A stretch of 39,232 nucleotides of DNA from a virus. Where the stretch lies: the IMG/VR virus record IMGVR_UViG_3300007735_000710, positions 1 to 39,232 of that record, one strand, 5' to 3'. The position numbers and the translations under genes are program-made. Every line of letters starts with the position of its first letter. The stretch's first letter is position 1. Below are positions 42 through 39,214 of the stretch, one piece after another. The notes under the pieces are model-generated. The model saw only the letters and a program-made list of their open reading frames with translations. It was not told where the DNA came from and did no database searches.

Positions 42-58
42 GTTCTAGAGTCTAGAAC
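42..58 (-). promoter_or_regulatory. Palindromic element copy 1 (GTTCTAGAGTCTAGAAC)
   Basis: A perfect inverted repeat with a single central base; the symmetry extends to 19 bp (41-59). The 17-mer is identical to the copy at 38100-38116. If the window is joined end to end, it lies 59 bases upstream of the start codon of the 225-residue early gene at 38537-39214, with that gene's ribosome binding site in between. This matches the usual position of the family, just upstream of genes. Function is inferred: operator or phage promoter. Confidence 0.75.
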
Positions 59-5495: not shown

Positions 5496-5503
5496 ATATT
5501 GAT

Positions 5504-5842: not shown

Positions 5843-5849
5843 AAGATTC

Positions 5850-26238: not shown

Positions 26239-26554
26239 GTTTTAGCCTCTTAAGGTTACGCAAGTGGCGTAATCTGTCCTTCTTATAAGGACACTTAACT
26301 GCCTTCAAAAGAGCCACAATTTGCTGATACTTGATTACCGTGTACGGAGTGACATCTCCGAGAAACTTGATGGCTTTCTTGCCACAGGCCGTCCAGACAA
26401 AAACATCGTCACCTTTAAGCCTGATGGACCCGCCCCACTTAGCGGCAACACGAAGCAGGACACCGTAGTGCTTGTTCGTGATTTCAATGGATGGCGTCCG
26501 GTTCCAACGGATACAGCCCTCACCATCAAGGAGCCCAGCCGTGTATGCGTTCAA
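26222..26554 (-). CDS. LAGLIDADG-type homing endonuclease, single motif
   Basis: A 110-residue basic protein. Near the N-terminus YTAGLLDGEGCI (residues 4-15) is a LAGLIDADG helix with its acidic residue (D10/E12). Later parts (YGVLLRVAAKWGGSIRLKG, VKCPYKKDRLRHLRNLKR) are typical of single-motif, dimeric family members. The likely start is the TTG at 26554, which shares bases with the DNA polymerase stop (TTGA), so it is co-translated. A longer open frame to 26644 lies inside the polymerase gene. It is free-standing and does not interrupt polymerase. It may cut the matching intron-free site in competing phages. Confidence 0.75.
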   Translation of the reverse strand: MNAYTAGLLDGEGCIRWNRTPSIEITNKHYGVLLRVAAKWGGSIRLKGDDVFVWTACGKKAIKFLGDVTPYTVIKYQQIVALLKAVKCPYKKDRLRHLRNLKRLKHVYTN

Positions 26555-28308
26555 TGTGTTTCTGCCCAGTTGTCCCCCACGCGGAATTCTCCGTCGAGTG
26601 GACACCTGAAGCCGTAGTTTTGGCCTGCTTCTCGAATCGCGCATACCACTATGTTACCGACAATCTCCGCTTGACCGGGGGAAACCATGAATTGATACTC
26701 ATCGTGGATGGAAGCGACTTGTTCCACATGCAGAGCCTGTGCTCGGAACTTCATATGCGCCAACACACAAGCCTGCTTCATCACCACCGCACCAGCAGAC
26801 TGAAGCAGAGTGTTCAGGGCCGCGTGTTCTGAGCGGGGATACAGCGGTCTAGAGTCTAGACCACGAAGCCAACCCCGGGTTCCGATTAGCGTAGCGACAT
26901 CTTCCTTGAGCCGCGTATAAGCCGGAACCTTGGCCTCGAAGTTGGCCCGAGCCCGCTTACCACGCTTGTTGTCCCCGCCCAACACAAGGCCCAACTTGTC
27001 GTTACCAGCACCATAGATGAGCGCGTAGATTGCTCCCTTGGCCTGATTACGAGCCGCCTTGTGCTCCGGGTTGCTCTTGTCCTGCTTGACATCGCCAATG
27101 AGGCCGAATGCCTTGGCATTTTCCCAATGGATATCGCCATCAAGAATAGCCTTGGAATATTCGCCATCGTCATACTTGCCAAGGTAATGAGCCAAGCACC
27201 GGAGTTCCAGACCAGATGCGTCCACGCCGACCAACTTCAATCCGGGCGCGGGAACAAACAGGCGGCGATACTCGGCCTTGGACGGAACCTGAGCCATGTT
27301 GGGACGGCTATGGGTGCAGCGGCCAGTAATGGCTCCGTTGGTGTTGACCCGACCATGGAGTCTACCATCAGAACCCACGGCCTTCAGCCAAGCCTCGTCG
27401 CCATCCGCCAGTTGCCCAAGGTGCTTGAGGGTAGTCAGGTACTGGTTCAGCAGTTTCGCCTCAGGCCAGTCCAGAGTCGAGAGCACAGCCTCATCCACCC
27501 GAGGTCGCCCATCTGGAGTGAACTCCTGCGGCTGCCAGTTGTACTTCTGCATCAGACGCTCGGCAATTTGAAGGCGGCTTCCGGGATTGAACGGCTCGAC
27601 CTTGGTCTTCAGGGGCTTGCCTGTCTTCTCGCTGACCCGCTCAGTAACCTTCGGCGGGAACACAACCTGAAGTTGCTGCTCAATGTCGATCATGTTCTTA
27701 CGCAGTTCGGCATGGAGTTTCTCGGCAGCACGGATATCGAATGGGAATCCTGTGCGCTCCTGCTCTCGGATGATGGCTGCAAACTGATGCTCCAGATCAA
27801 GCGCAGTCTGGGCCACAGGCATGGCGGAGTGGTTACGAAGATGGGCCTCCAGAGCAATCACGACATTCACATCCTGCTTGCAATACTCCCGCAGTTCAGC
27901 AGAGTCCATGTCAAAGGACGGGGCCTCCTGCTTCTCCACGCCAAGCCGATATCCCCAAGCCTTCAGCGAGTGCGATCCCACCATGTCCTTGGGGAAGTTG
28001 GGAGTCTGAAAGTCCACCTCTCGCTGGTTGGCATGGAGCAGCCGTGCGGCGATTAGTGTGTCAAACACCGCATCCTCGCGGTACTTGAACATGGGGTACA
28101 ACTTCTTCAGGGCAGGAAGATCAAACCCTTGAATGTTGTGTCCGATGATTTTGGTGGCCCCATTCAGAGTGGACAGACCATCTCGAATATCCACGATCTC
28201 TGGCTTGGCCCCATTGATTGACAAGGCCATGCACTTGACATCCTTGAGATCTGTGAAGTGGGTCCAGTCGTTGAGTGGGTTTGTTTCAATGTCAAAGTAA
28301 ACTTTCAT
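26551..28308 (-). CDS. DNA polymerase (T7 gp5-like, family A)
   Basis: A 585-residue replicative polymerase with proofreading domain. Exonuclease motifs: D6/E8 (FDIETN), HNIQGFD at 57-63, and Y142...D146. Polymerase motifs: A at 361-370 (GVDASGLELR), B at 420-433 (RNQAKGAIYALIYG), and C at 535-537 (HDE). It ends in the T7-like WAETH. It is shorter than T7 gp5 (704), so the thioredoxin-binding loop may be reduced or absent. GGAG precedes the ATG. Codons 483-487 (GLDSR) contain a complete copy of the TCTAGAGTCTAGA palindrome. Confidence 0.96.
   Translation of the reverse strand: MKVYFDIETNPLNDWTHFTDLKDVKCMALSINGAKPEIVDIRDGLSTLNGATKIIGHNIQGFDLPALKKLYPMFKYREDAVFDTLIAARLLHANQREVDFQTPNFPKDMVGSHSLKAWGYRLGVEKQEAPSFDMDSAELREYCKQDVNVVIALEAHLRNHSAMPVAQTALDLEHQFAAIIREQERTGFPFDIRAAEKLHAELRKNMIDIEQQLQVVFPPKVTERVSEKTGKPLKTKVEPFNPGSRLQIAERLMQKYNWQPQEFTPDGRPRVDEAVLSTLDWPEAKLLNQYLTTLKHLGQLADGDEAWLKAVGSDGRLHGRVNTNGAITGRCTHSRPNMAQVPSKAEYRRLFVPAPGLKLVGVDASGLELRCLAHYLGKYDDGEYSKAILDGDIHWENAKAFGLIGDVKQDKSNPEHKAARNQAKGAIYALIYGAGNDKLGLVLGGDNKRGKRARANFEAKVPAYTRLKEDVATLIGTRGWLRGLDSRPLYPRSEHAALNTLLQSAGAVVMKQACVLAHMKFRAQALHVEQVASIHDEYQFMVSPGQAEIVGNIVVCAIREAGQNYGFRCPLDGEFRVGDNWAETH
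26846..26862 (-). promoter_or_regulatory. Palindromic element copy 2, inside DNA polymerase gene
   Basis: GGTCTAGAGTCTAGACC is a perfect inverted repeat with one central base. It encodes residues 483-487 of the polymerase, a conserved stretch that in T7 gp5 reads GLDGR. It is the most downstream copy of the family along the direction of transcription, about 5.3 kb beyond the previous copy at 32200, and no copy occurs in the virion genes. Chance is unlikely for a 17-base match on this scale. It might start or control the late transcript. Confidence 0.75.
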
Positions 28309-28636
28309 GGCGTTCTCCTTCTGCTCGGTCTTCTCGGAAATGATACCTCAGTCTTGAGATGGCCGCATCATGGCATCTCTTCGCCTGCTCTGGTGTCAAC
28401 TGGTCATGGGGGTTGGCTATGTTGTACTCATCGGCAATTGCCTGCCAACACTTCCGTGTGTAGGGGTCAATTGGTTTGTACTCCCGTTGCTTGCGCTCAT
28501 ACCCATGGTGGATGATCTGCGATACAAGTTGTGGACTGATGTCATACTGACGGGCAATGTCCACTTTCTTCATCGCAGTCTTCGCTAATGATCGGATCTC
28601 CTCTACCTGCTGCTCCGACAGTTTTCTAGGCTTCAC
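28292..28636 (-). CDS. Small HTH protein, 114 residues
   Basis: The product, taken from a GTG at 28636, begins VKPRKLSEQQVEEIRSLAKT and contains a clear helix-turn-helix KVDIARQYDISPQLVSQIIH at about 23-42. The rest is helical and basic. The GTG is favoured because GGAG lies 7 bases upstream within the end of thyX. An open frame upstream to 28756 overlaps thyX and is not supported. HTH segments like this are found in phage regulators and in the DNA-binding tails of homing HNH enzymes; no nuclease motif is visible. Its stop overlaps the DNA polymerase start. Confidence 0.7.
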   Translation of the reverse strand: MKPRKLSEQQVEEIRSLAKTAMKKVDIARQYDISPQLVSQIIHHGYERKQREYKPIDPYTRKCWQAIADEYNIANPHDQLTPEQAKRCHDAAISRLRYHFREDRAEGERHESLL

Positions 28637-29270
28637 GACAGAACTCCGACAATGCACTCCATGACTCTGGGAAAATACGGTTGGCTTCTTCGCTAATCCG
28701 CACAGCCACCTCGCGTGTCTCGCGTTGAGCATAACTGGTGGTGCGCTGGCTGACAACCCTGAAGAAGGCGTACATGGAACCAGTCCAGATCCACATCGTG
28801 ATCATGCCCTGCGGCAAGACTGCACGGGCCTGCTCTGGGCACACACCTTCAGCCAGCAGATTGTTGTAGGTGCGTACAGCCAGAGCGGTGGCATATGAGT
28901 AGTCGCTGATGCAACGCTCGTTCTCCACCATCTCTTCGCTGCTGCCCTGCTTGACTGACGCAGCCGACTTGCGGAATCCATCTGGAGTCCAGACTGCGGG
29001 TTCGTAGTTGACATATCGACGGCTGACCTCATTCCATGTAAGGCCCACCTGATGCTTTGCCAGTTGGCGAGCAACAAAAATTGGGGCTTCAATGCGGAAG
29101 GAAAGACAGGTATGAGCAAAGGGGGACCAATGTCCATGCCTCGCCAAGTATCGAATCAAGTGTCCATTCTGCTGATCGGAGTAGTGCATCGCGTCCTTGT
29201 CAAAAGAAACACGAGCAGCATTCACAACAGAATCATCATCGCCCATGTAATTGATTAGTTCAACAGTCAT
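28626..29270 (-). CDS. thyX: Flavin-dependent thymidylate synthase ThyX
   Basis: A 214-residue enzyme that methylates dUMP to dTMP with folate and FAD. The ThyX block is at 68-86 (ARQLAKHQVGLTWNEVSRR), followed by YVNYEP. The usual RHR of the motif reads KHQ here, but the NExSxRY part is intact. The ATG at 29270 is chosen because AAGGAG lies 6 bases upstream and it overlaps the stop of the coiled-coil gene (ATGA). It supplies dTTP during phage replication, next to primase and polymerase genes. Confidence 0.92.
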   Translation of the reverse strand: MTVELINYMGDDDSVVNAARVSFDKDAMHYSDQQNGHLIRYLARHGHWSPFAHTCLSFRIEAPIFVARQLAKHQVGLTWNEVSRRYVNYEPAVWTPDGFRKSAASVKQGSSEEMVENERCISDYSYATALAVRTYNNLLAEGVCPEQARAVLPQGMITMWIWTGSMYAFFRVVSQRTTSYAQRETREVAVRISEEANRIFPESWSALSEFCREA

Positions 29271-29599
29271 TGTGTCTCCTTGAAGCAGTTCCATCCGCGT
29301 TCTCGCGCAATGGCATCAACACTCATTCTACCACCACGCGACAACCAAATTTCGTCGCACAGCAACTTCCTCGCCTCGTCGCGCTCGGCACGCACTTGTG
29401 CGATGTCTCGTTCGGCCTTCTGCATGGCCTGTCGCCAAGCCTCGATTTCATCCATCATCGTGCTGATCTGCTCGGCGGCCTCGGCCCGCTGCTGGTTCGC
29501 CATCTCGCCCATCCCCTCCCACGGGATACGCAAAGACTCCACCTGATTTCTGCGGCACTCCCACTTGAATGCGTCGTGGCTTGCTGGGTCGTCGCTCAT
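29267..29599 (-). CDS. Coiled-coil protein of unknown function, 110 residues
   Basis: The product begins MSDDPASHDAFKWECRRNQV. A strong coiled coil spans about 34-80 (RAEAAEQISTMMDEIEAWRQ, then AMQKAERDIAQVRAERDEAR), and a C-terminal part reads MSVDAIARERGWNCF. The start at 29599 has AGGA 7 bases upstream; longer frames overlap the primase gene. It is co-translated with thyX. No family is recognised. Confidence 0.65.
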   Translation of the reverse strand: MSDDPASHDAFKWECRRNQVESLRIPWEGMGEMANQQRAEAAEQISTMMDEIEAWRQAMQKAERDIAQVRAERDEARKLLCDEIWLSRGGRMSVDAIARERGWNCFKETQ

Positions 29600-29612
29600 C
29601 TGTGTTCCTTTT

Positions 29613-31199
29613 TCAAATTTCATCGTTGATCTCCATTTCAAATTCATGCAGACGGCCTGCTTCCTTGCAGTAGCGCAGCATTCCAGCCATCCCGGTATCT
29701 CCGGTGAATCGATTCTTAAGTACGCGCAAAGCCAGTTCGTTGGGGTTCTCTCCCTGCTGGTTTCGCTCCAGACCAATGACGGCATCCGCCAACTGGGCAA
29801 TGGAGTGAGATCCTCGAAGTTGGGCCAGACTGGTCGTAGCCCCCTCCTCGTGCCCACGATCCCCATCAGGACGACGAAGATGCGACACCACGAACATCGC
29901 TGCCTGTGTCTCCTCCACCAGACTACGGAGCGAGGTCATGGCATTGTCAATAAGTCTGCGCTCATCGCCATCGCCAAGGCCCGATACCACGATGCTAAGA
30001 TGGTCAAGGAAGATGTACTCACACCCACACGACTTAATCATGTACCTCGTTCGGGCCAGCAAGTTCTCCGGATCGACTGAACCGAAGTGGTCGAACAGCA
30101 CCACCTTGGCTACCGTCGCATCAAAGGCTTCACGCTTCTGCTCATCCTTGATGCCACGCTCATCCCAGAAATACGGAGGAGTGTTAAGATGGATGCCCAT
30201 AAGGTTCCTAGCAGTCCGCTTGACACTCTCTTCGAGCATCAAGAGGCCGACCTTCTTGCCGCTACGAATCAAGTGGCAGATCATCTCACGGCACACCGAA
30301 GACTTGCCAATACCCGTACCCGAAGTCAGGACAACAAGTTCGCCCTTTCGGATACCGAGCAACTTCTCATTCAGGGCAGTCCATGGGTATGGTGTGGAGT
30401 CGTTCGTGTCGTCCTCGTTGACGGTGTCCCACAAGTCCGTACCCAAGACCACACCGTCTGGCCTGTAAGCCTTGGCCCCATAGACGGCATCGATCACCCG
30501 CTTGCCCTCGCCTGCGGTGTGAGCCTCGTTGGCATCCTTGAAGCCCACGATGGTTCCGATCTTGGCCTTGCCCGGGGTAAGCAGCATGGCGCACTCACGA
30601 GCAGCCTTGCGCCCCGGCTCGTCATCGTCAAACATGATCACGACAGAGTCAAACTTCTCCAGCCACTCCAGATTCGACTGGAAAGACTTCAGGGCAGCGG
30701 CGGCTCCATTGGGAACGCTGACGACAGGCCACTTGTTGCCAAACAGTTGGCTGACCGTCAGGGCATCAATCTCGCCCTCCGTCACCGTAACCATGCGGCC
30801 TCCATCACGCCACAGGTGCATTCCATACAGGGGTAGAGCCTTGCTGTCCCCCAGCGTCAGGAAATCCTTGGAAGGGAAGCGCAACTTCTGAGCGACCACC
30901 TCTCCATCCTTGATGTACTGGGCAACATGGACCGTCTGACCGCTGTAGTCTCCGATGCCGTACTGCCAGAAGCGACAAGTGTCCTCGCTGATTCCGCGCT
31001 TCTTCAGGGCAGCAAAGTCAACATCGATCATGGCTGACGAAGTCCGAGTAACCTCCGGCAGAGGCTCTCCATCCCCCATCTCGTAATACTTGCAGCCAAA
31101 GCAATAACCGTGTCCATCGGTGTATCTTGCCAGATTATCCCGACTGCCGCACTTAGGGCATGGCTCGTGTTGAACGAACTCCGATTCTTTGTGGTTCAT
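29613..31199 (-). CDS. Primase-helicase (T7 gp4-like)
   Basis: A 528-residue two-domain protein from the ATG at 31199 (GGAAG about 10 bases upstream). An N-terminal zinc finger has C14-C17 and C33-C36. The TOPRIM primase core has E141/E143 (TEGEIDAL) and D191-D193 (FDDDEPG). The RecA-like helicase has Walker A at 293-301 (SGTGIGKSS) and Walker B near 396-400 (YIFLDH). An in-frame extension to 31301 overlaps the RusA gene and is not supported, because the zinc finger would normally be near the N-terminus. It unwinds DNA and primes lagging strands with the DNA polymerase. Confidence 0.95.
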   Translation of the reverse strand: MNHKESEFVQHEPCPKCGSRDNLARYTDGHGYCFGCKYYEMGDGEPLPEVTRTSSAMIDVDFAALKKRGISEDTCRFWQYGIGDYSGQTVHVAQYIKDGEVVAQKLRFPSKDFLTLGDSKALPLYGMHLWRDGGRMVTVTEGEIDALTVSQLFGNKWPVVSVPNGAAAALKSFQSNLEWLEKFDSVVIMFDDDEPGRKAARECAMLLTPGKAKIGTIVGFKDANEAHTAGEGKRVIDAVYGAKAYRPDGVVLGTDLWDTVNEDDTNDSTPYPWTALNEKLLGIRKGELVVLTSGTGIGKSSVCREMICHLIRSGKKVGLLMLEESVKRTARNLMGIHLNTPPYFWDERGIKDEQKREAFDATVAKVVLFDHFGSVDPENLLARTRYMIKSCGCEYIFLDHLSIVVSGLGDGDERRLIDNAMTSLRSLVEETQAAMFVVSHLRRPDGDRGHEEGATTSLAQLRGSHSIAQLADAVIGLERNQQGENPNELALRVLKNRFTGDTGMAGMLRYCKEAGRLHEFEMEINDEI

Positions 31200-31569
31200 G
31201 GTGATGTTCTTCCCATTCGATTTCGATTCGAGGATTGTCGCTGTAGCACTTACGGGCTTCAATCCACATGATTTGGACATCGTCCTCCCACGCCCATCCA
31301 TTGAGCGAGTCGAGGATCGACTTGATGTGATTGTCGATGTCGCCTACAGGCCACACATTCGATGGCTTCTTAGGCGAGCGACAAAAGAAAGTAATGTTTA
31401 CTTTAAGAGGCCCCGAGAGAGGGCAGCCCTTAGGCTTTTTCATGGCACTAAGGGCTGCCTTTGCCTCTCGGCGGAACTTCTCATAGGTCTTTCCATAGTA
31501 TGCAAATCCTCTGCGAGAAACTCGCGGACGACTTGCAGGCACAGGATCAACCCAGATGACTGCCCTCAT
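31153..31569 (-). CDS. RusA-type Holliday junction resolvase
   Basis: A 138-residue nuclease. Catalytic aspartates are in the typical RusA block at 76-100: GDIDNHIKSILDSLNGWAWE followed by DDVQI. The N-terminus MRAVIWVDPVPASRPRVSRR also fits. T7 uses a different resolvase (gp3 endonuclease I) to debranch replicating DNA before packaging, and RusA stands in its place here. Its ATG overlaps the SSB stop (TGATG). Confidence 0.88.
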   Translation of the reverse strand: MRAVIWVDPVPASRPRVSRRGFAYYGKTYEKFRREAKAALSAMKKPKGCPLSGPLKVNITFFCRSPKKPSNVWPVGDIDNHIKSILDSLNGWAWEDDVQIMWIEARKCYSDNPRIEIEWEEHHHEPQRIGVRSTRAMP

Positions 31570-32183
31570 CAGAAGTCAGAGCCATCCTCAGAAGTTTCGC
31601 TGGCCTGCTCCGACTCCGTCTGGGCCACGAAACCCTTGGGATCAGCCTTGAACCCGTAGGCATCGAAGTTACCACCCGGAGTGTACTCACGCAGTTCCAG
31701 AATCTGCACGGCCTTCATGCGGAGGCTCACGCCAGCCCCAACCATAGCCGTGAAGAACGGAACCACCTCGAACGCCACCTTGATCCGGCTACCGGAGCCG
31801 ATGTTCGGCGGCGTGTTGATCGCGTGACCAGCCGAGTCGAACAGCGCGGGCTTCTGCTCCCACGACTTCTCCTCGTTGCCAGCCTTGGCCTTCAACTTGA
31901 ACTTGATGCGGACCTTTCCATCCTCAGTCTCCTTGATGGGAATGTCCGACCGCTTCAACTTCTTGCCGCCCTTGGACTCGCAAGTGGCAGAGTAAGCCTC
32001 ATCCGCCACCTTCTTCAGCGTAGCGATGAACTCCTTGGTTTCCTTGGCATCCGGCTCCAGTTCCAGATCCACGCTGTACACACCGTCCTTGTCGAACTTG
32101 GTGTCAGGCTGGGTAAGGCGGGGATAGATGGCCGTACCGAGGGGCGAGGTAATGCGGATGAACTTCTTCTTGGTAGCACTCAT
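31569..32183 (-). CDS. Single-stranded DNA-binding protein (T7 gp2.5-like)
   Basis: A 204-residue OB-fold protein with the gp2.5-like N-terminal pattern TSPLGTAIYPRLTQPDTKF. The C-terminus is acidic and ends in phenylalanine (SETSEDGSDF), the tail that in T7 contacts polymerase and helicase. AAAGGAG precedes the ATG, and palindromic element copy 3 sits 16 bases upstream of the ATG. It coordinates replication proteins and recombination. Confidence 0.92.
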   Translation of the reverse strand: MSATKKKFIRITSPLGTAIYPRLTQPDTKFDKDGVYSVDLELEPDAKETKEFIATLKKVADEAYSATCESKGGKKLKRSDIPIKETEDGKVRIKFKLKAKAGNEEKSWEQKPALFDSAGHAINTPPNIGSGSRIKVAFEVVPFFTAMVGAGVSLRMKAVQILELREYTPGGNFDAYGFKADPKGFVAQTESEQASETSEDGSDF

Positions 32184-32199
32184 GTGATACTCTCCTTTG

Positions 32200-32216
32200 A
32201 GTATAGACTCTAGACT
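32200..32216 (-). promoter_or_regulatory. Palindromic element copy 3 (AGTATAGACTCTAGACT)
   Basis: It lies between the RNA polymerase stop and the SSB start. The 17-mer is identical to copy 10 at 38302-38318 and differs from copy 4 only in the central base. This subclass is less symmetric (TATA in one arm). The TAG stop of the RNA polymerase gene at 32215-32217 overlaps its edge. Operator or phage promoter for the SSB-to-exonuclease block is inferred. Confidence 0.7.
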
Positions 32217-34608
32217 AGTTGAAATAGTAGTCAGAGTCGCGAACTTGTGTGATGTCCAGAGAACCGTACTCTGGGACTTCAGGCATACTAACTGACGAAG
32301 GCAGCATTGTCAAGACCCCCTGCCGGAACTCCTGAAGCAGGTCGCGGCTGAAAATATCGACTGTAGCCTGTCGGACACACGAAGCCGTCATCATATAGTC
32401 TCCAGACAGACACAGGATCTGATCGTGGACAGAGCCAAGATGGTTGATCCCATTGGCGGCACAGAGATTGATGGTGTGTCCAAGCAGTCCACCAAAGCCA
32501 TCCAGCGAGTGAATGTAGTTGGCAGGACCACCGTTCAAAGCCTTGCGCTTGCTCTGGGTTCCGTTCTCTTCTCGGATCGACAGCACCTTGGCCTTGGCTC
32601 CGATACGAGTAGATACCGTAACCACATCATAATTTTCGTAACGCATGCGAACGGGGAATCCGATGGGAGTCATCCAGTACGGAGTCACATCGTTGTCGAT
32701 CAGCACAGCCATGCATCCACGGATAAAGTCCATGCCACGCTTGGCCGAGCCGACTACATCATCAATGGATTCCCAGATGATTTTGCCGAGGAAAGCCACG
32801 GGCTTGTAGAACTCCAGACCAAACGGGTTCTCTCCGGTCTTCCGCATCTTGTCCTCAAGCCATTCACGGGTGTAGCCGATGCATGAGTGCATGGTCAATC
32901 CGTATGGCAGAGTCATGGTCTGACGCTTGGTCGTAGTGCGGTCAATACCAAAGCGCAGAAGATCCTTAGCCATGGGATCCTCGCTATTCTGAAGTCGGCG
33001 GATGACGCTGTTGGCAACAAACTGATATGGATCAGACGGACGATCCGAAGGGGTCACATTGGTCGCCACGGCTGCCACAGGATCGCGAAGCAGCATTGAA
33101 TAGATCTGAAGCCCCTGCGTGGTCGCGTCCATGGCAATAGGTAGGCTGCTAACGAAACCCTTGCCTGTACGCCAGAGACCAGCAATTTCCCGGCAGGCGG
33201 CAACAAATGCGAACGGCTCGTCAGCCTCCAGCCACATGCGGTTCGACCACGGATCGATGGCAATTTGTTCAATCGTCCTACGGTTTTCCTCCACCCACCG
33301 AACACGATCCTTGATGGTTTCCTTGTCAAGTCCGAACTTGTTTGCCGTGTGAACATAGAGCGGAAATTGATCGGAATCAGAGTTGATGTGCTTGCCGTCA
33401 ATGAAACGGAGCATTGCCTTGGCATACGATACTCCCTGAGGATGGAGGAACAGGGGCAGCGGATAGCCACGGCCACGGAAGTCCAGTTGATGCGGGAACC
33501 AGATGCGCGGATGCTCGGCCATCTTCTCGGCAACAAACAAAGCCTTCAGGGTAAGCAGCCGCTGCGATTCATAGGACTCGTTCAGGAAGTGGACCTTGGC
33601 AGCAGCCTTGCGCCAGTTCCGACGAGCCTCTTGATTCGTGTCAATATCGACAGGCTTGGTGGGCAGCGGCTCATCGATTGATGGCGGAAGGCTGTCTACC
33701 GTTAGCCCCTCCTTCCAACACTCACGGACGAGGGACATGATGTACTGATCAACAGTCCATGGAGTATTTTGGACAAAGTTGACCGCGTCGTAGACGGCGG
33801 GTGATAGTGAAGATGATAGTGATTGCTGATACGCCTTGGACCGACTCTTGACCAGAGGCCGAGGCTTCCACTCCATCGACGAATATCCGCCAATCCATGG
33901 ATTATTCCACTCTAGCGGACGCTCAATGGTGGGCAAGAACATTGGTTCAAGCGTTTCGTGATACTCATGGCAGTCCTTGATCCACTTCTTGATGTCCTTG
34001 GACGGCTGGATCACACAGTAACGGCGGCCCCGGGCATTCAACTTGGTAACGATGTCGATGATCCCCGTGCGCTGGGACAACATCTCAATGCAGAGAAGGC
34101 CAACAGCCAGAGCATCGGCCTTGGTCCAACGCTTGGTGACCAGATCGACAGCCTTGGCGGCATCTCGGGCAAACCGACGCTTGAACTTCTGGCCTACACT
34201 TTTGAAAGTCTTCTTCTGAATAGTCTTCAGGAAGTCCGGGTTGTTTTCGGCCAGATCTTGCAGCAGGACTTCGTCCTCAATGGCCCGCCCAACAGCGATG
34301 CAGGTTCCGGTGAGCATGCGCTCCTGCGACAGGGCATCGATCACGACCTTGGCAGCGATGACGGCAGTCTTTTCGGGCTCAATCTGGCTGAGGTAGGACA
34401 GACATCGGTGACGACGACCGGGACTGATGGAAGCCTTGGCAAGCCACGACTCCAACTCCTTTGCCAGTTCGGTGGTGCACCGATTGAGCATCATCCGGCC
34501 CGGAATGGTGTTGCTTTCTGCTGCCAGTTTGCTGGCCTTGTCACGGCGATTATGGTATCGCTGACGGCCAAGTTCCAGCATTTCCTTGTCGAGTTTGTTT
34601 TGGCGCAT
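32215..34608 (-). CDS. T7-type single-subunit RNA polymerase (gp1-like)
   Basis: A 797-residue DNA-dependent RNA polymerase. The conserved blocks are in order: QLDFRGRGYP at 374-383, motif A with D494 (AMDATTQGLQIYS), motif B R557...K561...Y569 (RTTTKRQTMTLPYG), PANYIHSLDG at 695-704, and motif C H728-D729. All catalytic residues equivalent to T7 D537, R627, K631, Y639 and D812 are present. It is shorter than T7 RNAP (883). The ribosome binding site is poor. Element copy 4 ends 7 bases before the ATG, so expression may be tightly controlled. It transcribes middle and late genes. Confidence 0.96.
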   Translation of the reverse strand: MRQNKLDKEMLELGRQRYHNRRDKASKLAAESNTIPGRMMLNRCTTELAKELESWLAKASISPGRRHRCLSYLSQIEPEKTAVIAAKVVIDALSQERMLTGTCIAVGRAIEDEVLLQDLAENNPDFLKTIQKKTFKSVGQKFKRRFARDAAKAVDLVTKRWTKADALAVGLLCIEMLSQRTGIIDIVTKLNARGRRYCVIQPSKDIKKWIKDCHEYHETLEPMFLPTIERPLEWNNPWIGGYSSMEWKPRPLVKSRSKAYQQSLSSSLSPAVYDAVNFVQNTPWTVDQYIMSLVRECWKEGLTVDSLPPSIDEPLPTKPVDIDTNQEARRNWRKAAAKVHFLNESYESQRLLTLKALFVAEKMAEHPRIWFPHQLDFRGRGYPLPLFLHPQGVSYAKAMLRFIDGKHINSDSDQFPLYVHTANKFGLDKETIKDRVRWVEENRRTIEQIAIDPWSNRMWLEADEPFAFVAACREIAGLWRTGKGFVSSLPIAMDATTQGLQIYSMLLRDPVAAVATNVTPSDRPSDPYQFVANSVIRRLQNSEDPMAKDLLRFGIDRTTTKRQTMTLPYGLTMHSCIGYTREWLEDKMRKTGENPFGLEFYKPVAFLGKIIWESIDDVVGSAKRGMDFIRGCMAVLIDNDVTPYWMTPIGFPVRMRYENYDVVTVSTRIGAKAKVLSIREENGTQSKRKALNGGPANYIHSLDGFGGLLGHTINLCAANGINHLGSVHDQILCLSGDYMMTASCVRQATVDIFSRDLLQEFRQGVLTMLPSSVSMPEVPEYGSLDITQVRDSDYYFN

Positions 34609-34615
34609 AGATATT

Positions 34616-34632
34616 AGTATAGAGTCTAGACT
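34616..34632 (-). promoter_or_regulatory. Palindromic element copy 4, before RNA polymerase gene
   Basis: AGTATAGAGTCTAGACT, followed on the plus strand by TTTAGAAC, so a second half-site (GTTCTAAA on the minus strand) adjoins it. It ends 7 bases from the ATG of the RNA polymerase gene and would overlap the ribosome-binding region. If it is a repressor site it is well placed to shut off polymerase synthesis; if it is a promoter it would make the gene autocatalytic. Confidence 0.7.
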
Positions 34633-34646
34633 TTAGAACGACATAT

Positions 34647-34683
34647 AAAAACCCCTCATATGCAAAATATTGCACATGAGGGG
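34647..34683 (-). terminator. Intrinsic terminator between DUF932-like gene and RNA polymerase
   Basis: On the minus strand a 14-bp stem (CCCCTCATGTGCAA with TTGCATATGAGGGG, one G-T pair), loop TATT and tail TTTTT. It lies 55 bases after the stop of the DUF932-like gene and just before the RNA polymerase leader. This separates the early block from the RNA polymerase operon, unlike T7, where the early terminator lies after gene 1.3. Confidence 0.88.
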
Positions 34684-34737
34684 CTCGAAAGGAGAACACC
34701 GATGAACACGGTGCTTCCCGGAGTATATGTCTACAGA

Positions 34738-35469
34738 TTAGACCAGTTCGTAAGTCTGCTTGAACGCCTTCTCGAAAGCCAGAACGCGGCGCGGACGAAC
34801 GATGGGGTTGAAGTCCTTGGCAAGATGGGTGTACGCCGCGTGGACATTGTAGAGACACCACTTGTCAGTCTCGTACATGAACGACGGATCGACCGCCTCG
34901 TTGTAGAAGTCCAGCATGCTGGCCTTGGGCAGGATGTCCTGCTGGGCCAGACGCACCGTGAACGCGGCCAGACGATCTGCATCGGTGTAGTTCCGGCGGA
35001 TCGACTCGTAGAACTCCCCAGCCCGGGCCACCTCGTTGCCGAAGGCGTTGACCGAACGATTGATCAGTTCGGGCAGACGCTCCCAGACATTGGTGGTGTG
35101 CTTGGTACGAAGGATGTGATCAGCCACGACCATGCCGTTGCTGCACACAAAAACCTTGCCACCAAAGACCAGTCGCACAGCCTTGGACTTGTCGTAAGAG
35201 TTGATGACGGCAACCGACCAGTTCATGCGCTGGGTTTCAGGCATGGACGGACTGCCAACCTCCGCTTCGATGTCCACCTGACTGATGAAGATGGGCTTCT
35301 TGCGGTGGATCTGGTGCGACTCCGTGCCCAACCGATAGCCGTTGCCGTAGAAGGCCCGCTTGACCTCATCGAAGAGTGCCGCCTGATGCACAGGCTGGTA
35401 CGAGTCCGTCGATGCAGGCAGGGGGTACTTCGTGATGTCCGTCATAGTTTGCCAAGTGTTTCGTGCCAT
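34738..35469 (-). CDS. DUF932-like phage protein
   Basis: A 243-residue protein. The block AVRLVFGGKVFVCSNGMVVA (97-116) and the later NPIVRPRRVLAFEKAFKQ fit the DUF932 (phage/plasmid-like TIGR03299) group of unknown function, found on phages and plasmids. AAGGAG and element copy 5 lie just before the ATG. It is the last gene of the early block, closed by a strong terminator. Confidence 0.8.
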   Translation of the reverse strand: MARNTWQTMTDITKYPLPASTDSYQPVHQAALFDEVKRAFYGNGYRLGTESHQIHRKKPIFISQVDIEAEVGSPSMPETQRMNWSVAVINSYDKSKAVRLVFGGKVFVCSNGMVVADHILRTKHTTNVWERLPELINRSVNAFGNEVARAGEFYESIRRNYTDADRLAAFTVRLAQQDILPKASMLDFYNEAVDPSFMYETDKWCLYNVHAAYTHLAKDFNPIVRPRRVLAFEKAFKQTYELV

Positions 35470-35480
35470 GTGTGTCTCCT

Positions 35481-35497
35481 TGTCTAGAGTCTAGACT
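35481..35497 (-). promoter_or_regulatory. Palindromic element copy 5, before DUF932-like gene
   Basis: TGTCTAGAGTCTAGACT; the inner 15 bases GTCTAGAGTCTAGAC are perfectly symmetric. It ends 11 bases before the ATG of the gene at 34738-35469 and overlaps the TAG stop of the gene at 35491-35700. Compared with copies 1 and 9 the outer base pair of the arm changes on both sides together (T/A to G/C), so symmetry is kept by paired change. Confidence 0.75.
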
Positions 35498-35700
35498 GTT
35501 GTGTGAGGCGGATGCTTCAGAGCAATCTTGAGGAAACGATCCTCATCTGCGGTAACCCATAGGTGGTAGTTGTCTACCCGCCAAAGTGCGAGTGACGCAA
35601 GGTTATATGACCTGATCAGGTCGCCCTGCATCCAACCCGTGTGAGCAGAATTGATTGTGTCCGAAAGCAAACACGAGTGTCGATGAAACGGTATCTCCAT
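35491..35700 (-). CDS. Small protein of unknown function, 69 residues
   Basis: The product begins MEIPFHRHSCLLSDTINSAH and ends KIALKHPPHTTV; the middle reads LALWRVDNYHLWVTADEDRF. No ribosome binding site lies before the ATG, and a host-type promoter (-10 at 35706-35711) sits directly in front, so the start would be leaderless or an internal start would be used. The stop TAG is inside element copy 5. The frame is open and the codon use is similar to neighbours, but no family is recognised. Treat as plausible. Confidence 0.5.
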   Translation of the reverse strand: MEIPFHRHSCLLSDTINSAHTGWMQGDLIRSYNLASLALWRVDNYHLWVTADEDRFLKIALKHPPHTTV

Positions 35701-35705
35701 GTGTG

Positions 35706-35733
35706 TATATTACATCACAATTTGATTTTGTCA
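35706..35733 (-). promoter_or_regulatory. Host-type sigma-70 promoter abutting a start codon
   Basis: TTGACA (35728-35733), 16-base spacer, TAATAT (35706-35711). The -35 overlaps the TGA stop of the 87-residue gene. Transcription would begin about at the ATG at 35700 of the next gene, giving little or no leader. It shares the perfect TTGACA and 16-base spacing with the three other early promoters but lacks their hairpin and close palindrome. Confidence 0.65.
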
Positions 35734-35994
35734 ATCGTGGATATCGACGCTCTTGTTGCTGATGTGCAACCAACCCGGACGGGTACGCTCCTCATCGATC
35801 CAAGCGGAGATACTGAACTCCTTGCCAGTTTCCTCGTTGACCATGAGTAGCACGACGGCGAACTCTCCGGGATTCAAGTTGTCTTCGGCAATGCCGATTC
35901 CCTTGACTCTGGCGTCCTTGAGAACGATAGCCCGGTTGAACTGGTAGGTAGCCCCTGCTGGGGTATCACGATCTGGTGTCTTGCCGATCCACAT
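35731..35994 (-). CDS. Small protein of unknown function, 87 residues
   Basis: The product begins MWIGKTPDRDTPAGATYQFN and is beta-rich and acidic, with FAVVLLMVNEETGKEFSISA in the middle. The ribosome binding site AAAGGAG lies 6 bases before the ATG. An AT-rich leader with an imperfect hairpin precedes it. It belongs to the early block. I do not recognise a family. Confidence 0.7.
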   Translation of the reverse strand: MWIGKTPDRDTPAGATYQFNRAIVLKDARVKGIGIAEDNLNPGEFAVVLLMVNEETGKEFSISAWIDEERTRPGWLHISNKSVDIHD

Positions 35995-36067
35995 GGTGGA
36001 CTCCTTTCAAAAAGAAAGCGCGTGATTTTAACCCGAGGTATACGCGCCCCACCTCGACCTGAAAGGA

Positions 36068-36622
36068 TCAGACGGAGGCTGGCTTCATGCGGTTCAGTAT
36101 GTAATTGAACGCAGCCTCAAAGAAGTCATTGCGGAACTCAGGATTGTTGCGGAACTCTTCCACGATGAACTTGGCGAGTTTGCCGTGCTCACGGGATTCA
36201 CCGATCTCCTCCTTGTCGATCTCGTAGGCCAGCGTAGTGTAGTCGATCTCGCTGGACAGTTCACGAGCCACATCTGAAAGATCGATCTTGCCCGCAACAT
36301 CTTCGGCAAGGTCGGAAACATCAATGTGTTCCGCAACCGACGCGACATCGATGTGAGAAGCAACATCCTCAACATCCATGTCATTGGCGACATCTCGGGT
36401 ACTGACATTGGCCGCGATGTCCTCCGCACAGAACTGATCCGCAAGGTGGCTGTAACTGATCTCCTCGTGGATCTCGGCGTAGTCGATCTCTTCGGCCAGT
36501 TGCTTGTAGTCGATCCGAGGATCGTTCAACGAGATGCCCGGAAGCATAGGCCCAGCGTTGACTTGGAACTTGTTCTGAAGAGACTGGATGGCTTCCGCAG
36601 AGAGCGTGATGGTGAGGTCCAT
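36068..36622 (-). CDS. Acidic early protein with 9-residue repeats
   Basis: A 184-residue protein with about 40 Asp/Glu and 14 Lys/Arg. From residue 37 hydrophobic positions recur at 37, 46, 55, 64, 73, 82, 91 and 100, an exact 9-residue spacing, with consensus I-D-V/Y-x-D/x-L/V-A-E-x; then two longer units begin at 113 and 126, and a last at 135. The N-terminal 36 residues and the C-terminal 45 are non-repetitive. A regular solenoid or rod with an acidic surface is likely. The negative charge and early position invite comparison with DNA-mimic antirestriction proteins such as T7 Ocr, but no sequence match is claimed. Confidence 0.8.
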   Translation of the reverse strand: MDLTITLSAEAIQSLQNKFQVNAGPMLPGISLNDPRIDYKQLAEEIDYAEIHEEISYSHLADQFCAEDIAANVSTRDVANDMDVEDVASHIDVASVAEHIDVSDLAEDVAGKIDLSDVARELSSEIDYTTLAYEIDKEEIGESREHGKLAKFIVEEFRNNPEFRNDFFEAAFNYILNRMKPASV

Positions 36623-36640
36623 GGTGGACTCCTTTCGGTT

Positions 36641-36657
36641 ATTCTAGAGTCTAGAAC
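36641..36657 (-). promoter_or_regulatory. Palindromic element copy 6, before the acidic repeat protein
   Basis: ATTCTAGAGTCTAGAAC with a 15-base perfect inverted repeat (36642-36656). It ends 18 bases before the ATG at 36622. It is downstream of the promoter at 36701-36728 and the leader hairpin at 36675-36691. Confidence 0.75.
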
Positions 36658-36674
36658 GGTGATGTGGTTTGTTG

Positions 36675-36728
36675 GAAGACACGATGTCCCCAACACAAGC
36701 ATAGTATCAGACAACCCTGATCTGTCAA
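36675..36728 (-). promoter_or_regulatory. Early promoter with leader hairpin, module for the acidic protein
   Basis: TTGACA (36723-36728), 16-base spacer ending in TGA (extended -10), TACTAT (36701-36706). After the start site the leader can fold as GGGGACA-TCG-TGTCTTC (36675-36691), a 7-bp stem including G-T pairs. The -35 overlaps the TGA stop of the GP88-like gene. The same order is found at 37586-37637 and 38128-38182. Confidence 0.75.
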
Positions 36729-37534
36729 TAGTTGTTCACCACGAAGGCTGAACCACGATTGATCTTACCCTTGGCACGAAGACCCACAATGCATCCCGAG
36801 GGATCATTGATCCGAAGATCGTGAGAGTCTCCGTCGATGACGGGCCAGTCCTTGTAAAACTCGGGCAGAGGATCGCCCTTGTTCACATTGAACACAGCCG
36901 CCACCTTGCCACGACGCTGCAAGTACTGCTCGCACTCGTCCCAGTTGTGACCGGAGAACGAAAGCGTGAGGTCAAGAATGAACTCCCGGCGTGGATTATC
37001 CATCAGGTCCATGCAACGCTTGAATGACTTTGTGTAGTCGTAGTTGCGCCACGAGAACCAGTAGATCTCCGGTGCGATGTGCTCCCACGGGATATCCGAG
37101 AGCACATTGGATCGAAAGGCGAATGATGGACCATGCTTGGTCAGAGCAGCCGCCAACTCCGCATACAACTGGCGGAAGAAGTCATACGGGTGGTCCATGA
37201 GATACCGGGTCTTCTGAATCCGGGCCTCCCGAACATTGGAGAACTTGGACCGACCCGAGGTGATGCCGAGACATGCAGCCTCACACTCCGGGCTACGCCA
37301 TGGGCAGAGTTGATACCCCGAGGACCCAGCCGGAGCCAGCGTCAGGCCATAGATCGGGATCGACCCCTTCGCCAACTTGGTATTGGCCCCCGGCTCCGTC
37401 AGCAGTTTGGCCGTACGAACACGCAGCCAGTCAGCCTTGCAGCAATGATCCTTGAAAGCGTCGTAAGCCACACCCTTGATGTAGGCCCAGTTTGGAGCGA
37501 CGGCTGGCGTGTTGTTGATGACTTCGAGTTGCAT
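36725..37534 (-). CDS. GP88-like cysteine-containing phage protein
   Basis: A 269-residue protein. NTKLAKGSIPIYGLTLAPAG (51-70) followed by C77, C84 and C88 (CPWRSPECEAACLG) and then ARIQKTRYLMDHP resembles the 'gene product 88' group of phage proteins of unknown function, with a likely metal-binding cysteine cluster. C31-C32 are also near the N-terminus. It is an early gene with its own promoter and element copy 7 upstream. Ribosome binding site AAAGGAA. Confidence 0.7.
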   Translation of the reverse strand: MQLEVINNTPAVAPNWAYIKGVAYDAFKDHCCKADWLRVRTAKLLTEPGANTKLAKGSIPIYGLTLAPAGSSGYQLCPWRSPECEAACLGITSGRSKFSNVREARIQKTRYLMDHPYDFFRQLYAELAAALTKHGPSFAFRSNVLSDIPWEHIAPEIYWFSWRNYDYTKSFKRCMDLMDNPRREFILDLTLSFSGHNWDECEQYLQRRGKVAAVFNVNKGDPLPEFYKDWPVIDGDSHDLRINDPSGCIVGLRAKGKINRGSAFVVNNY

Positions 37535-37553
37535 GGTGTTTCCTTTCGAGTTC

Positions 37554-37570
37554 GTTCTAGAGTTTAGAAC
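37554..37570 (-). promoter_or_regulatory. Palindromic element copy 7, before GP88-like gene
   Basis: GTTCTAGAGTTTAGAAC, differing from copies 1 and 9 by one base next to the centre. Flanking C and G extend the symmetry (37553-37571). It ends 19 bases before the ATG at 37534. The stretch from here to the ATG is nearly the same as the one after copy 9 (both contain ACTCGAAAGGAA). Confidence 0.75.
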
Positions 37571-37585
37571 GGATTGGATTTGATG

Positions 37586-37637
37586 GGCAGACCCTCTGCC
37601 TACAAGTAAAAAGTATCAGACAAACATCAGTTGTCAA
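37586..37637 (-). promoter_or_regulatory. Early promoter with leader hairpin, module for GP88-like gene
   Basis: TTGACA (37632-37637), 16-base spacer ending in TGA, TACTTT (37610-37615). The leader folds as GGCAGA-GGG-TCTGCC (37586-37600). The -35 lies in the last codons of the 48-residue gene. The stems of the modules differ in sequence but keep pairing, which suggests that the hairpin is selected. Confidence 0.75.
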
Positions 37638-37773
37638 CCTCTGCACGAAGCAGACAAACCTTGATGTCATCCAGTTCCGCGATGATCTCCTTGAGAGTTT
37701 CCTCGTGGGTGATGTGCGAAATGGACTTGGACAGAAGATCCAGCAGACGGTGAATCATTTCGTTGGGACACAT
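37627..37773 (-). CDS. Small early protein, 48 residues
   Basis: A 48-codon ORF beginning MCPNEMIHRLLDLLSKSISH and ending DDIKVCLLRAEVDN. It is probably helical throughout, with an acidic middle (HEETLKEIIAELDDIK). AAGGAGAA lies 9 bases before the ATG and overlaps the stop of the 24-residue peptide. It is too short for usual gene lists, but the ribosome binding site and tight packing support it. Confidence 0.65.
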   Translation of the reverse strand: MCPNEMIHRLLDLLSKSISHITHEETLKEIIAELDDIKVCLLRAEVDN

Positions 37774-37784
37774 GGGTGTTCTCC

Positions 37785-37859
37785 TTAATCGGTGGTGCTG
37801 ATGTACAGGGCAAGCGGAATGCCCACAAGAACGAGTAGCGCAGCCAGCAGTTCAAACAT
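37785..37859 (-). CDS. 24-residue membrane peptide
   Basis: The ORF MFELLAALLVLVGIPLALYI plus STTD is almost entirely one hydrophobic span, with a Glu near the N-terminus and Asp at the end. AGGAG lies 7 bases before the ATG, and element copy 8 directly precedes that. Such tiny early membrane peptides in phages can act on host envelope proteins or prevent superinfection, but no function can be assigned from sequence. Confidence 0.6.
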   Translation of the reverse strand: MFELLAALLVLVGIPLALYISTTD

Positions 37860-37871
37860 TGATGTTCTCCT

Positions 37872-37888
37872 GTTCTAGAGTTTAGAAT
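37872..37888 (-). promoter_or_regulatory. Palindromic element copy 8, before 24-residue peptide
   Basis: GTTCTAGAGTTTAGAAT, with the same off-centre base as copy 7. It lies between the zinc-ribbon stop (37888-37890) and the peptide ATG at 37859, 12 bases away. No host promoter is seen directly upstream, so the element can occur without one. Confidence 0.7.
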
Positions 37889-38079
37889 CAGTCGATCCGG
37901 TGACCTTGGCGGCAGTCCGCACAGACCCCATGGACCACGGAAGCATCCTCATAGCCACAGATCTCGCAGATGCCATCCTGCGGCTCCTCGTGCTGGGCCA
38001 CGCCACGGTCCTCGCACCACAAATGGGCCTTGATACGCTCCCGGGCATCACGAACACGGTATTCAACTGACTTGCACAT
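37888..38079 (-). CDS. Small zinc-ribbon protein, 63 residues
   Basis: The product begins MCKSVEYRVRDARERIKAHL. Two CxxC knuckles, C38-C41 (CEIC) and C53-C56 (CADC), form a probable zinc ribbon at the C-terminus; the N-terminal half is a basic helix. AAGGA is 7 bases before the ATG, with element copy 9 and a host promoter upstream. Small zinc ribbons of early phage genes often bind host RNA polymerase or nucleic acid. The exact target is unknown. Confidence 0.75.
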   Translation of the reverse strand: MCKSVEYRVRDARERIKAHLWCEDRGVAQHEEPQDGICEICGYEDASVVHGVCADCRQGHRID

Positions 38080-38099
38080 GACTGGTTCCTTTCGAGTTT

Positions 38100-38116
38100 G
38101 TTCTAGAGTCTAGAAC
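38100..38116 (-). promoter_or_regulatory. Palindromic element copy 9, before zinc-ribbon gene
   Basis: GTTCTAGAGTCTAGAAC, perfect inverted repeat, identical to copy 1. It ends 20 bases before the ATG at 38079, downstream of the promoter and leader hairpin at 38128-38182. Confidence 0.78.
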
Positions 38117-38127
38117 GGATTGGACTG

Positions 38128-38182
38128 GGAGCAGACGATCTGCCCCACAACTGAAGACTACCAGACCACCCTACTTTGTCAA
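38128..38182 (-). promoter_or_regulatory. Early promoter with leader hairpin, module for zinc-ribbon gene
   Basis: TTGACA (38177-38182), 16-base spacer ending in TGG, TAGTCT (38155-38160; weak -10). The leader folds as GGGGCAGA-TCG-TCTGCTCC (38128-38146), an 8-bp stem with one G-T pair. The distance from -10 to palindrome is 38 bases, against 39 and 43 in the two sister modules. Confidence 0.7.
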
Positions 38183-38301
38183 GGGGTTACTTTTGGTCTA
38201 CACATTGGAGCACATGTATATTGACCTAGGTTGATACTTGTAGTTAGTACTTCTTTTAGTCTATATTTAAGGACTATAGGGGCAACTAAAGTTTAGACTT
38301 A

Positions 38302-38318
38302 AGTATAGACTCTAGACT
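38302..38318 (-). promoter_or_regulatory. Palindromic element copy 10, in intergenic region
   Basis: AGTATAGACTCTAGACT, identical to copy 3. It is the only copy not close to a start or stop codon: the next gene start is about 220 bases away. Neighbouring half-sites at 38292-38298 and 38256-38262 could extend binding. Confidence 0.65.
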
Positions 38319-38478
38319 GACCTAGCAGATTACATCTAGGGTTGGAACATGATGCGTCAGATTTGAGTTGGAAACTGACGGAACTGATGCTGAAACTAAC
38401 GACTTGGATGTCTTTTTGGTGGGGCCGACGACGACTGATGACAGTAAATGATGATAGCGGCTGGAAAAAATTTGCATG

Positions 38479-38512
38479 AAAAAACCCCGACCCACCTTTC
38501 GGTGAGCCGGGG
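38479..38512 (-). terminator. Intrinsic terminator of first early gene
   Basis: On the minus strand a 12-bp stem (CCCCGGCTCACC with GGTGGGTCGGGG, two G-T pairs), a GAAA tetraloop and six T. It is an exemplary factor-independent terminator about 25 bases after the stop of the 225-residue gene. It isolates that gene from the rest of the early block. Confidence 0.92.
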
Positions 38513-38516
38513 TCGT

Positions 38517-38533
38517 GGTCTAGAGTCTAGAAC
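38517..38533 (-). promoter_or_regulatory. Palindromic element copy 11, between first gene and its terminator
   Basis: GGTCTAGAGTCTAGAAC, with core symmetry only. It starts 4 bases after the stop codon of the 225-residue gene and ends just before the terminator stem. A promoter here would fire straight into a terminator, so a protein-binding site seems a better reading for this copy. Confidence 0.7.
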
Positions 38534-38536
38534 GGG

Positions 38537-39214
38537 TCAGGCCTTGGCCGCTTCGGCCTTTTGGCGTGCCTTTTCCATGGCATCCACACGGACCGCCGCG
38601 CGCTTGAGCAGGTCGATGGCCACCAGCAGATCTTCGCCAGACTCCGCAATCGCAACCTTGGCCAACTTGGACACGCTGGCCTCGATCTTTTGGGCGGGGT
38701 CCGTCGGCTCTTCAGGCTTCACGGCGTCCCGACAGGCCTTCAGCCGATCCGTTCCCGTCTGGATCGACTCCTCTGCCAACTTGGCGAAGGTGCGGATGGC
38801 AGAGGCTTGCGCCGTGGCATCGCCACGATTCTGGCGCTTGGCCTTCGCCACCATCACCCGAAGGCCTTCCATCGGGAGTGAATCGGCGCGCTCCGTGCCC
38901 AGCACCGTATACCCCTGCCCGACTTCCGCCAGATAGTACGCCGTAGACTTGGCGATGCCGATGGACGACAAGTGTCGGACCACCCACTCCCCCAGCGTCA
39001 GACCGTAGGCGGCAGGTACTCCGGCCTCCTGCACGGCACGGATGGCGACAGCCGCGTCACGCTTCGAGGATTCGACGGACCGCGCGGCACGAACTACTGC
39101 ATCGACCGCCGACATCTGCACCGGATCCAGCACCACGGTATCGATGGGTGCAGACTTGGGTGCAGCAGGAGCGGGAGCGGCGAGAACGGCGGGAGTCTTT
39201 TTCGTAGCCTTCAT
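38537..39214 (-). CDS. First early protein with HTH-like segment, 225 residues
   Basis: A 225-residue protein. The N-terminal 25 residues are Ala/Pro rich and basic. Residues 75-103 (GEWVVRHLSSIGIAKSTAYY, then LAEVGQ) look like a helix-turn-helix, and the C-terminal half is charged helix ending in an Ala/Lys-rich tail. AAGGAT precedes the ATG. It is followed by its own terminator and is flanked by element copies 1 and 11, so it is a candidate to bind that element. It has higher GC and Ala content than its neighbours. No family is recognised with certainty. Confidence 0.7.
   Translation of the reverse strand: MKATKKTPAVLAAPAPAAPKSAPIDTVVLDPVQMSAVDAVVRAARSVESSKRDAAVAIRAVQEAGVPAAYGLTLGEWVVRHLSSIGIAKSTAYYLAEVGQGYTVLGTERADSLPMEGLRVMVAKAKRQNRGDATAQASAIRTFAKLAEESIQTGTDRLKACRDAVKPEEPTDPAQKIEASVSKLAKVAIAESGEDLLVAIDLLKRAAVRVDAMEKARQKAEAAKA

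Follow-up and report, generated by a model that had tools for sequence, protein, structure and literature searches.

Near-identical T7-like phages carry different early-region palindrome sets, probable operators of a phage-coded regulator

The early and replication region of a T7-like phage, represented by the 39,232-nucleotide (nt) IMG/VR record IMGVR_UViG_3300007735_000710 (positions 1 to 39,232; "the window" is this whole stretch), contains most of a dispersed family of 17-base-pair (bp) palindromes. These are probably the operator set of a phage-coded dimeric DNA-binding protein, most likely a 225-residue protein encoded at one end of the record, whose homologues in related phages lie at the same locus and are flanked by sites. 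In two pairs of nearly identical sister phages the whole operator set is switched together with divergence of the flanked gene. An earlier annotation of the window, made from its letters and open reading frames (ORFs) and called here the sequence-only reading, had offered three options for the palindromes: operators for a phage-coded regulator of many early genes, promoters of the phage RNA polymerase, and RNA processing sites. Comparison of genomes leaves the first as the best supported.

The palindrome family

Run without any motif, a family finder picked out as its largest palindromic group in the window the same 11 positions that the sequence-only reading had listed (42, 26846, 32200, 34616, 35481, 36641, 37554, 37872, 38100, 38302 and 38517), and five first-order Markov simulations produced at most two family members. 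The sequence TCTAGASTCTAGA occurs exactly six times in the window (mean 0.00 in 100 dinucleotide-preserving shuffles), and TCTAGAGTCTAGA with up to three mismatches gives 35 matches, each strand being counted apart, versus 7.3 ± 3.2 in the shuffles, none of which reached 35. Read in the sense direction (the genes are on the minus strand), the unit is mostly [G/T]TCTAGA-S-TCTAGA[A/C].

Several properties claimed for the family could be confirmed. Seven copies (32200, 34616, 35481, 36641, 37554, 37872 and 38100) do lie 7-20 nt ahead of a start codon in the sense (minus) direction, the subclass AGTATAGA-x-TCTAGACT does consist of three copies (32200, 34616 and 38302), and no copy lies among the virion genes of the window. 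The broader statement that copies precede early and replication genes holds for the seven but fails for 42, 26846, 38302 and 38517. Paired changes in the arms are found between genomes and are only partly true inside the window genome, in which 6 to 8 of the 8 arm pairs are formed per copy and only copies 42, 26846 and 38100 are perfect 17-bp palindromes. Copy 34616 has a degenerate third unit; in the relative L021 (5055-5083, minus-strand coordinates) four TCTAGA units follow one another with 7-bp phasing (ATCTAGAGTCTAGAGTCTAGAGTCTAGAC).

Genome-specific sets and their switching between sisters

About 40 related contigs were gathered by polymerase or by site pattern. Almost all early regions that could be read have a set of their own, made up of near-identical palindromes at homologous places, and the sequence of the set varies between genomes. 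The sequence-only reading had named relatives lacking conserved copies as the result that would tell against it; the opposite was found, relatives carrying sets at the same places. Sites of the GTCTAGASTCTAGAC type occur in the window, L015, L021, L033 and L037, with variants in L094 and L095, while the sets of other genomes are built on GTCTAGGAYCCTAGAC (L104), GTCTAAGWCTTAGAC (L100), TTTATAGASTCTATAAA (L101), TTCTAGTCACTAGAA (L115), TTCTAGGATCCTAGAA (L110) or GTAGCAASTTGCTAC (L117, with a polymerase only 40% identical). Centres likewise differ by genome, being ACC/GGT in the L084 group, TTC/GAA in L016 and L116, and TCG/CGA/TCA in L051. Two contigs once regarded as site-free, L012 and L013, carry a 16-bp form (TTCTAGAACTCTAGAA), and that view of them was dropped.

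Nearly all genomes bear a site at the junction between the genes for RNA polymerase and single-stranded DNA (ssDNA)-binding protein, the exceptions being L102, L103 and L117. The window has 11 sites, and most relatives whose early region is longer have 7-14; three contigs of 39-40 kb have every exact match (14 in G032, 11 in G033 and 5 in G031) in the early and replication region. No such palindrome family was seen in the stretches read of the T7-like phages HTVC109P, CRP-113, Pasto and YIMV22061 (RNA polymerase 32-36% identical).

Two sister pairs are a stronger argument for the candidate regulator than the distance correlation given further below. L100 and L101 share 96.3% nucleotide identity over 6.1 kb, 788 of 796 RNA polymerase residues (99.0%) and 99.8% of the helicase-primase. 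All seven orthologous sites compared nonetheless differ in place, GTCTAAGWCTTAGAC in one phage and TTTATAGASTCTATAAA in the other, the bases around them being kept to varying degrees and closely at the polymerase junction. The site-flanked gene, the homologue of the 225-residue ORF, is 31% identical over 155 aligned residues, while its two upstream neighbours are 97-100% identical. The second pair, L110 and L115, has polymerases that are 98.1% identical over 639 residues, terminase-region proteins at about 98-99% and DUF932 proteins at 95%. Its sites are wholly different (12 of TTCTAGGATCCTAGAA versus 11 of TTCTAGTCACTAGAA), and its flanked genes are 35-37% identical. Other early genes in both pairs diverge less than the flanked gene, apart from a few accessory ones. 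Because the sites are scattered over many kb beside near-identical genes, a single recombination event is excluded. A switch of the whole set means that a common reader has changed; the polymerase has not, and so is not that reader.

Duplex DNA or RNA

If the sites acted as RNA, each would form a hairpin in a 5' leader, with a 6-7-bp stem and a 3-nt loop before the Shine-Dalgarno sequence, as the target of a phage or host factor that binds or cuts it. We allow this a small chance: most copies do lie in leaders right ahead of the ribosome site, and a short stem is possible. The processing option is disfavoured by several observations. Over seven core pairs of 226 non-redundant sites, read on the transcribed strand, one-sided deviations comprise 31 G-U and 34 A-C, so that no wobble bias is seen; pairing kept on the transcribed strand with wobble tolerated, as expected of an RNA hairpin, is not the pattern of these sites. 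Some copies, moreover, are found within the DNA polymerase ORF, ahead of promoters or ahead of terminators. In each genome the arms are nearly alike, and from one genome to another they switch, though pairing alone could drift; Rfam gave no match for the palindrome element.

The centres point the same way. They are reverse complements of one another in 27.6% of within-genome site pairs versus 9.5% of pairs between genomes, and an asymmetric centre is found in both orientations within one genome, which in RNA would yield unrelated loops. With centres in both orientations the element must be usable either way, as expected for a duplex bound by a symmetric dimer. The sequence pattern thus favours duplex DNA as the form that would be recognised, rather than an RNA hairpin or a directional promoter.

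The candidate regulator and its competitors

The family of the 225-residue protein was found wherever its junction could be read and matched. It is very diverged, and most members are basic. An AlphaFold2 model of the window's protein is all-helical, with a mean predicted local distance difference test (pLDDT) score of 89.7. Pfam, PHROGs and NCBIfam hold no supported match, Foldseek against the PDB found nothing significant for either of two models, and profile comparison with PDB sequences yielded weak matches only, to unrelated helical proteins. In a common genome set, divergence of this protein shows the highest correlation with divergence of the operators (r = 0.49, p = 0.012), and the correlation persists given RNA polymerase divergence (partial 0.45, p = 0.03); other runs gave a partial correlation of 0.41 (p = 0.014 and 0.008).

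Several points weigh against this protein as the dimeric reader and repressor. No known DNA-binding family gives a supported match to it, and its helix-turn-helix (HTH) reading was made by eye from the order of the helices. The correlation test is small, with no p value surviving strict correction for 12 families, and with another genome set the exonuclease gene scored 0.33 (p = 0.006). Absence or strong divergence is seen, too, in a few accessory early genes of both sister pairs, and the sites of L115 and L037 have a single orientation throughout. Nine genomes searched gave no integrase match (PF00589), so that the usual partner of a lysogenic role is missing. There is, moreover, an ORF in the window (near 28292-28630) with an HTH_7 match near the cut-off (E = 7e-5).

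That ORF is an example of a different phage protein for which the sites might be operators, an explanation to which we give some, if little, credence. It is strongly diverged (38-49%), but its link to operator divergence is weaker (partial 0.17, p = 0.08) and no sites flank it. A host-coded regulator is, on the comparison of sets, unlikely as the reader: for near-identical sisters to have different sets the host factor must change while the phage does not, and it is the flanked phage gene that diverges along with the set. Such an arrangement does have a parallel in P. aeruginosa, whose SrpA binds a palindromic site ahead of the phage K5 RNA polymerase gene (PMC5945682), and some phages that differ in gene content (L020, L023 and L035) also have GTCTAG-N3-CTAGAC sites.

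The window encodes a T7-like polymerase and many of its genes are preceded by copies, yet it is very improbable that these are the promoter set of that enzyme, and this option was rejected. Polymerases that are 98-99% identical occur with entirely different sets, the centres have no fixed orientation, and the directional sequence conserved with its cognate polymerase that marks T7-type promoters was not found among these sites. Copies are absent from the virion genes, some stand before terminators, and similar sites occur in contigs that differ in gene content and showed no T7-like polymerase. Operators of KorB are likewise scattered palindromes of odd length, and their centre varies, but partition or plasmid-type sites of the ParB/KorB kind can be dismissed as the least probable explanation, since nine genomes lack a match to the ParA domain (AAA_31, PF13614) and the candidate has no ParB match.

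Placement of the sites and features of the window

Placement was counted for 253 sites in 27 contigs, some of them closely related, so that the counts are not independent. A start codon with a Shine-Dalgarno-like motif follows 183 of the 253 within 45 nt (median 19). A sigma-70-like promoter lies upstream of 53, versus 5 in shuffled upstream DNA, and the end of its -10 element is 18-52 nt, mostly 31-46 nt, ahead of the site. A site so placed is downstream of the transcription start, and would therefore act on elongation. In L015, L021 and L070 the flanked gene has its own sigma-70-like promoter and the upstream site precedes that promoter, so that the flanked gene itself would escape a block; in L115 a site lies in the leader of the flanked gene. 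The principal features of the window are as follows, all on the minus strand.

38537..39214, minus: ORF of 225 residues, candidate regulator; basic (isoelectric point 9.4), predicted all-helical
38517..38533, minus: palindrome copy between the 225-residue ORF and a strong intrinsic terminator
38483..38514, minus: intrinsic terminator behind the 225-residue ORF, with a 14-pair stem and T-rich tail
38302..38318, minus: palindrome copy of the AGTATAGA type, upstream of the first early sigma-70-like promoter; a degenerate further copy adjoins it near 38285-38297
38100..38116, minus: palindrome copy 20 nt before the ATG of a 63-residue early gene; sigma-70-like promoter (TTGACA) upstream
37872..37888, minus: palindrome copy before a 62-residue ORF, TTG start at 16 nt; 6 of 8 pairs
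37554..37570, minus: palindrome copy 19 nt before the ATG of a GP88-family gene (269 residues); sigma-70-like promoter upstream
36641..36657, minus: palindrome copy 18 nt before the ATG of a 184-residue gene; sigma-70-like promoter (TTGACA) upstream
35481..35497, minus: palindrome copy 11 nt before the ATG of a DUF932-family gene (243 residues), abutting AGGAG
34649..34686, minus: intrinsic terminator upstream of the RNA polymerase gene
34616..34632, minus: palindrome copy following that terminator, 7 nt before the RNA polymerase start codon
32215..34608, minus: phage RNA polymerase, 797 residues (PHROG 414, E = 1.6e-204)
32200..32216, minus: palindrome copy at the junction of RNA polymerase and ssDNA-binding protein, 16 nt before the ATG
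26846..26862, minus: perfect palindrome copy inside the DNA polymerase ORF (26551-28308)
42..58, minus: perfect palindrome copy at the late-gene end of the record

The intragenic copy at 26846 has a match in the relatives L024 and L124, and the counterpart of copy 42 in L021, L015 and L070 lies upstream of the promoter of the homologous gene. CCCCTATAGTCCTTA, a conserved stretch beside site 38302, was considered as a polymerase promoter and set aside as a single copy in the window.

The assignment of the window to a T7-like phage comes from PHROG and other family matches of its proteins, which include RNA polymerase, Gp2.5-like ssDNA-binding protein, RusA-like resolvase, primase-helicase, thymidylate synthase, DNA polymerase, exonuclease, head-tail connector and terminase, the early region including the GP88 and DUF932 proteins. 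No near-nucleotide match to known phage records was found for the window, and the nearest named RNA polymerases are at most 36% identical to its own. The two ends of the record (1 and 39232) do not join cleanly: the promoter that precedes the homologous gene in relatives is missing there, and the record is therefore probably incomplete. In relatives, too, a terminator stands directly ahead of the RNA polymerase gene, and no clear host promoter separates the two. The 184-residue protein (36068-36622, minus strand), which diverges fast in all relatives, contains repeated acidic units (DVAxxIDxxDLA); it is possibly a DNA mimic, and its ArdA match is weak and sub-threshold. Between the last late gene and site 42, ARAGORN made a tRNA-like call without a full anticodon (228-299, minus strand), and one of 16 relative loci scanned gave a tRNA call (tRNA-Leu in L033, 4767-4850).

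Similar sites in other contigs

Sites of the GTCTAGAWTCTAGAC type stand before genes in phages of other gene content (L020, L023, L026, L029, L031 and L035), and in L029 there are also four copies belonging to another palindrome family, GTCCAAACTTTGGAC. What the L035-type phages have in common is a GP88 gene along with these sites. There, the protein that comes first after a site has only a weak profile similarity to the candidate (hhalign probability 1.7%) and is not claimed as its homologue, and tblastn in a phage collection found no match for either this protein or the L015 homologue. An AT-richer contig of other gene content, L048, has nine GTCTAG-N3-CTAGAC sites at 1842-6237 (minus-strand coordinates). 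L067 (IMGVR_UViG_2928394966_000006), with a terminase 58% identical to that of L100, has a few such sites, two of which enclose an ORF of regulator-like look; its contig id may indicate an isolate genome. The contig L124 (JAIXOQ010000009.1), from a metagenome-assembled genome labelled 'Proteobacteria bacterium', encodes a polymerase 93% identical to that of the window and has the same sites. It may be a hint of the host, the alternative being mis-binned phage DNA.

A proposed block to early transcription

As a working scheme for the operators, the 225-residue product (38537-39214) would bind the 17-bp palindromes as a dimer, and the bound protein would block or damp transcription elongation into the early and replication genes, leaving the virion genes free of the block. 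This would shut off the whole regulon, and any superinfecting relative that shares the operators would meet an immunity-like block. From the sequences compared we infer that the regulator is this protein, that it binds as a dimer, that it represses rather than activates and that it acts as a roadblock. A more ambitious version, which is tentative and perhaps somewhat more doubtful than sound, is that this clade without integrase has an immunity-type repressor of a new family, acting at about a dozen palindromic, elongation-blocking operators, with set and repressor rewritten together despite 98-99% core identity. Rewriting of both in phages so nearly identical would place operator specificity among the fastest-changing traits of these genomes.

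The complete difference in sets between near-identical sisters makes the identity and specificity of the regulator testable by a swap of one protein. How a regulator and about a dozen scattered operators change jointly is a general question of regulatory evolution. If the function is immunity, phages that are usually considered strictly lytic would use repressor-based exclusion of their relatives.

Relation to known systems

The site bound by SrpA in phage K5 resembles those described here as a palindrome upstream of an RNA polymerase gene, with binding by a regulator presumed in the present case. The K5 factor, however, is host-coded, and its sites are three in the phage and of other sequence (PMC5945682).

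The closest unexplained analogue comes from cluster K mycobacteriophages, in which a dozen or so start-associated sequences (SAS) and extended start-associated sequences (ESAS) lie just ahead of start codons in the non-structural half of the genome. The ESAS consensus varies between subclusters, and the authors disfavoured RNA hairpins and suggested DNA-binding proteins (PMC3203893, PMC12699233). Dispersed start-associated phage sites have had no firm function since the cluster K description in 2011. The present sites share the position close upstream of start codons, the restriction to the non-structural half and the group-specific sequence. SAS, by contrast, is asymmetric and includes the Shine-Dalgarno sequence, and ESAS is a pair of 17-bp repeats, whereas here there is one palindrome of 15-17 bp, in another phage group, with a co-switching candidate gene. 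Sequence and layout thus differ, and neither GGGATAGGAGCCC near start codons nor paired 17-bp repeats were found.

The closest working analogue is the stoperator system of the cluster A mycobacteriophages (L5 type). These genomes have some 20-30 short repressor sites each, many away from promoters in short intergenic spaces, where bound repressor blocks elongation; stoperator sequence varies between phages and correlates with the repressor (PMC6550527, PMC9283540). There are differences. L5 sites are 13 bp long, asymmetric, monomer-bound and orientation-dependent, while those described here are palindromic and orientation-free. In L5 there is lysogeny, and its two-domain repressor has been characterised, while the present candidate matches no known family and neither integration nor partition genes were found in the nine genomes searched. 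The two systems are alike in their many dispersed short sites, only 53 of the 253 here having a recognisable promoter just upstream, and in a site sequence that diverges with one gene, that of the putative repressor, as seen in both the sister pairs and the distance correlation. The pattern points to an unrecognised virus-coded gene switch in T7-like phages.

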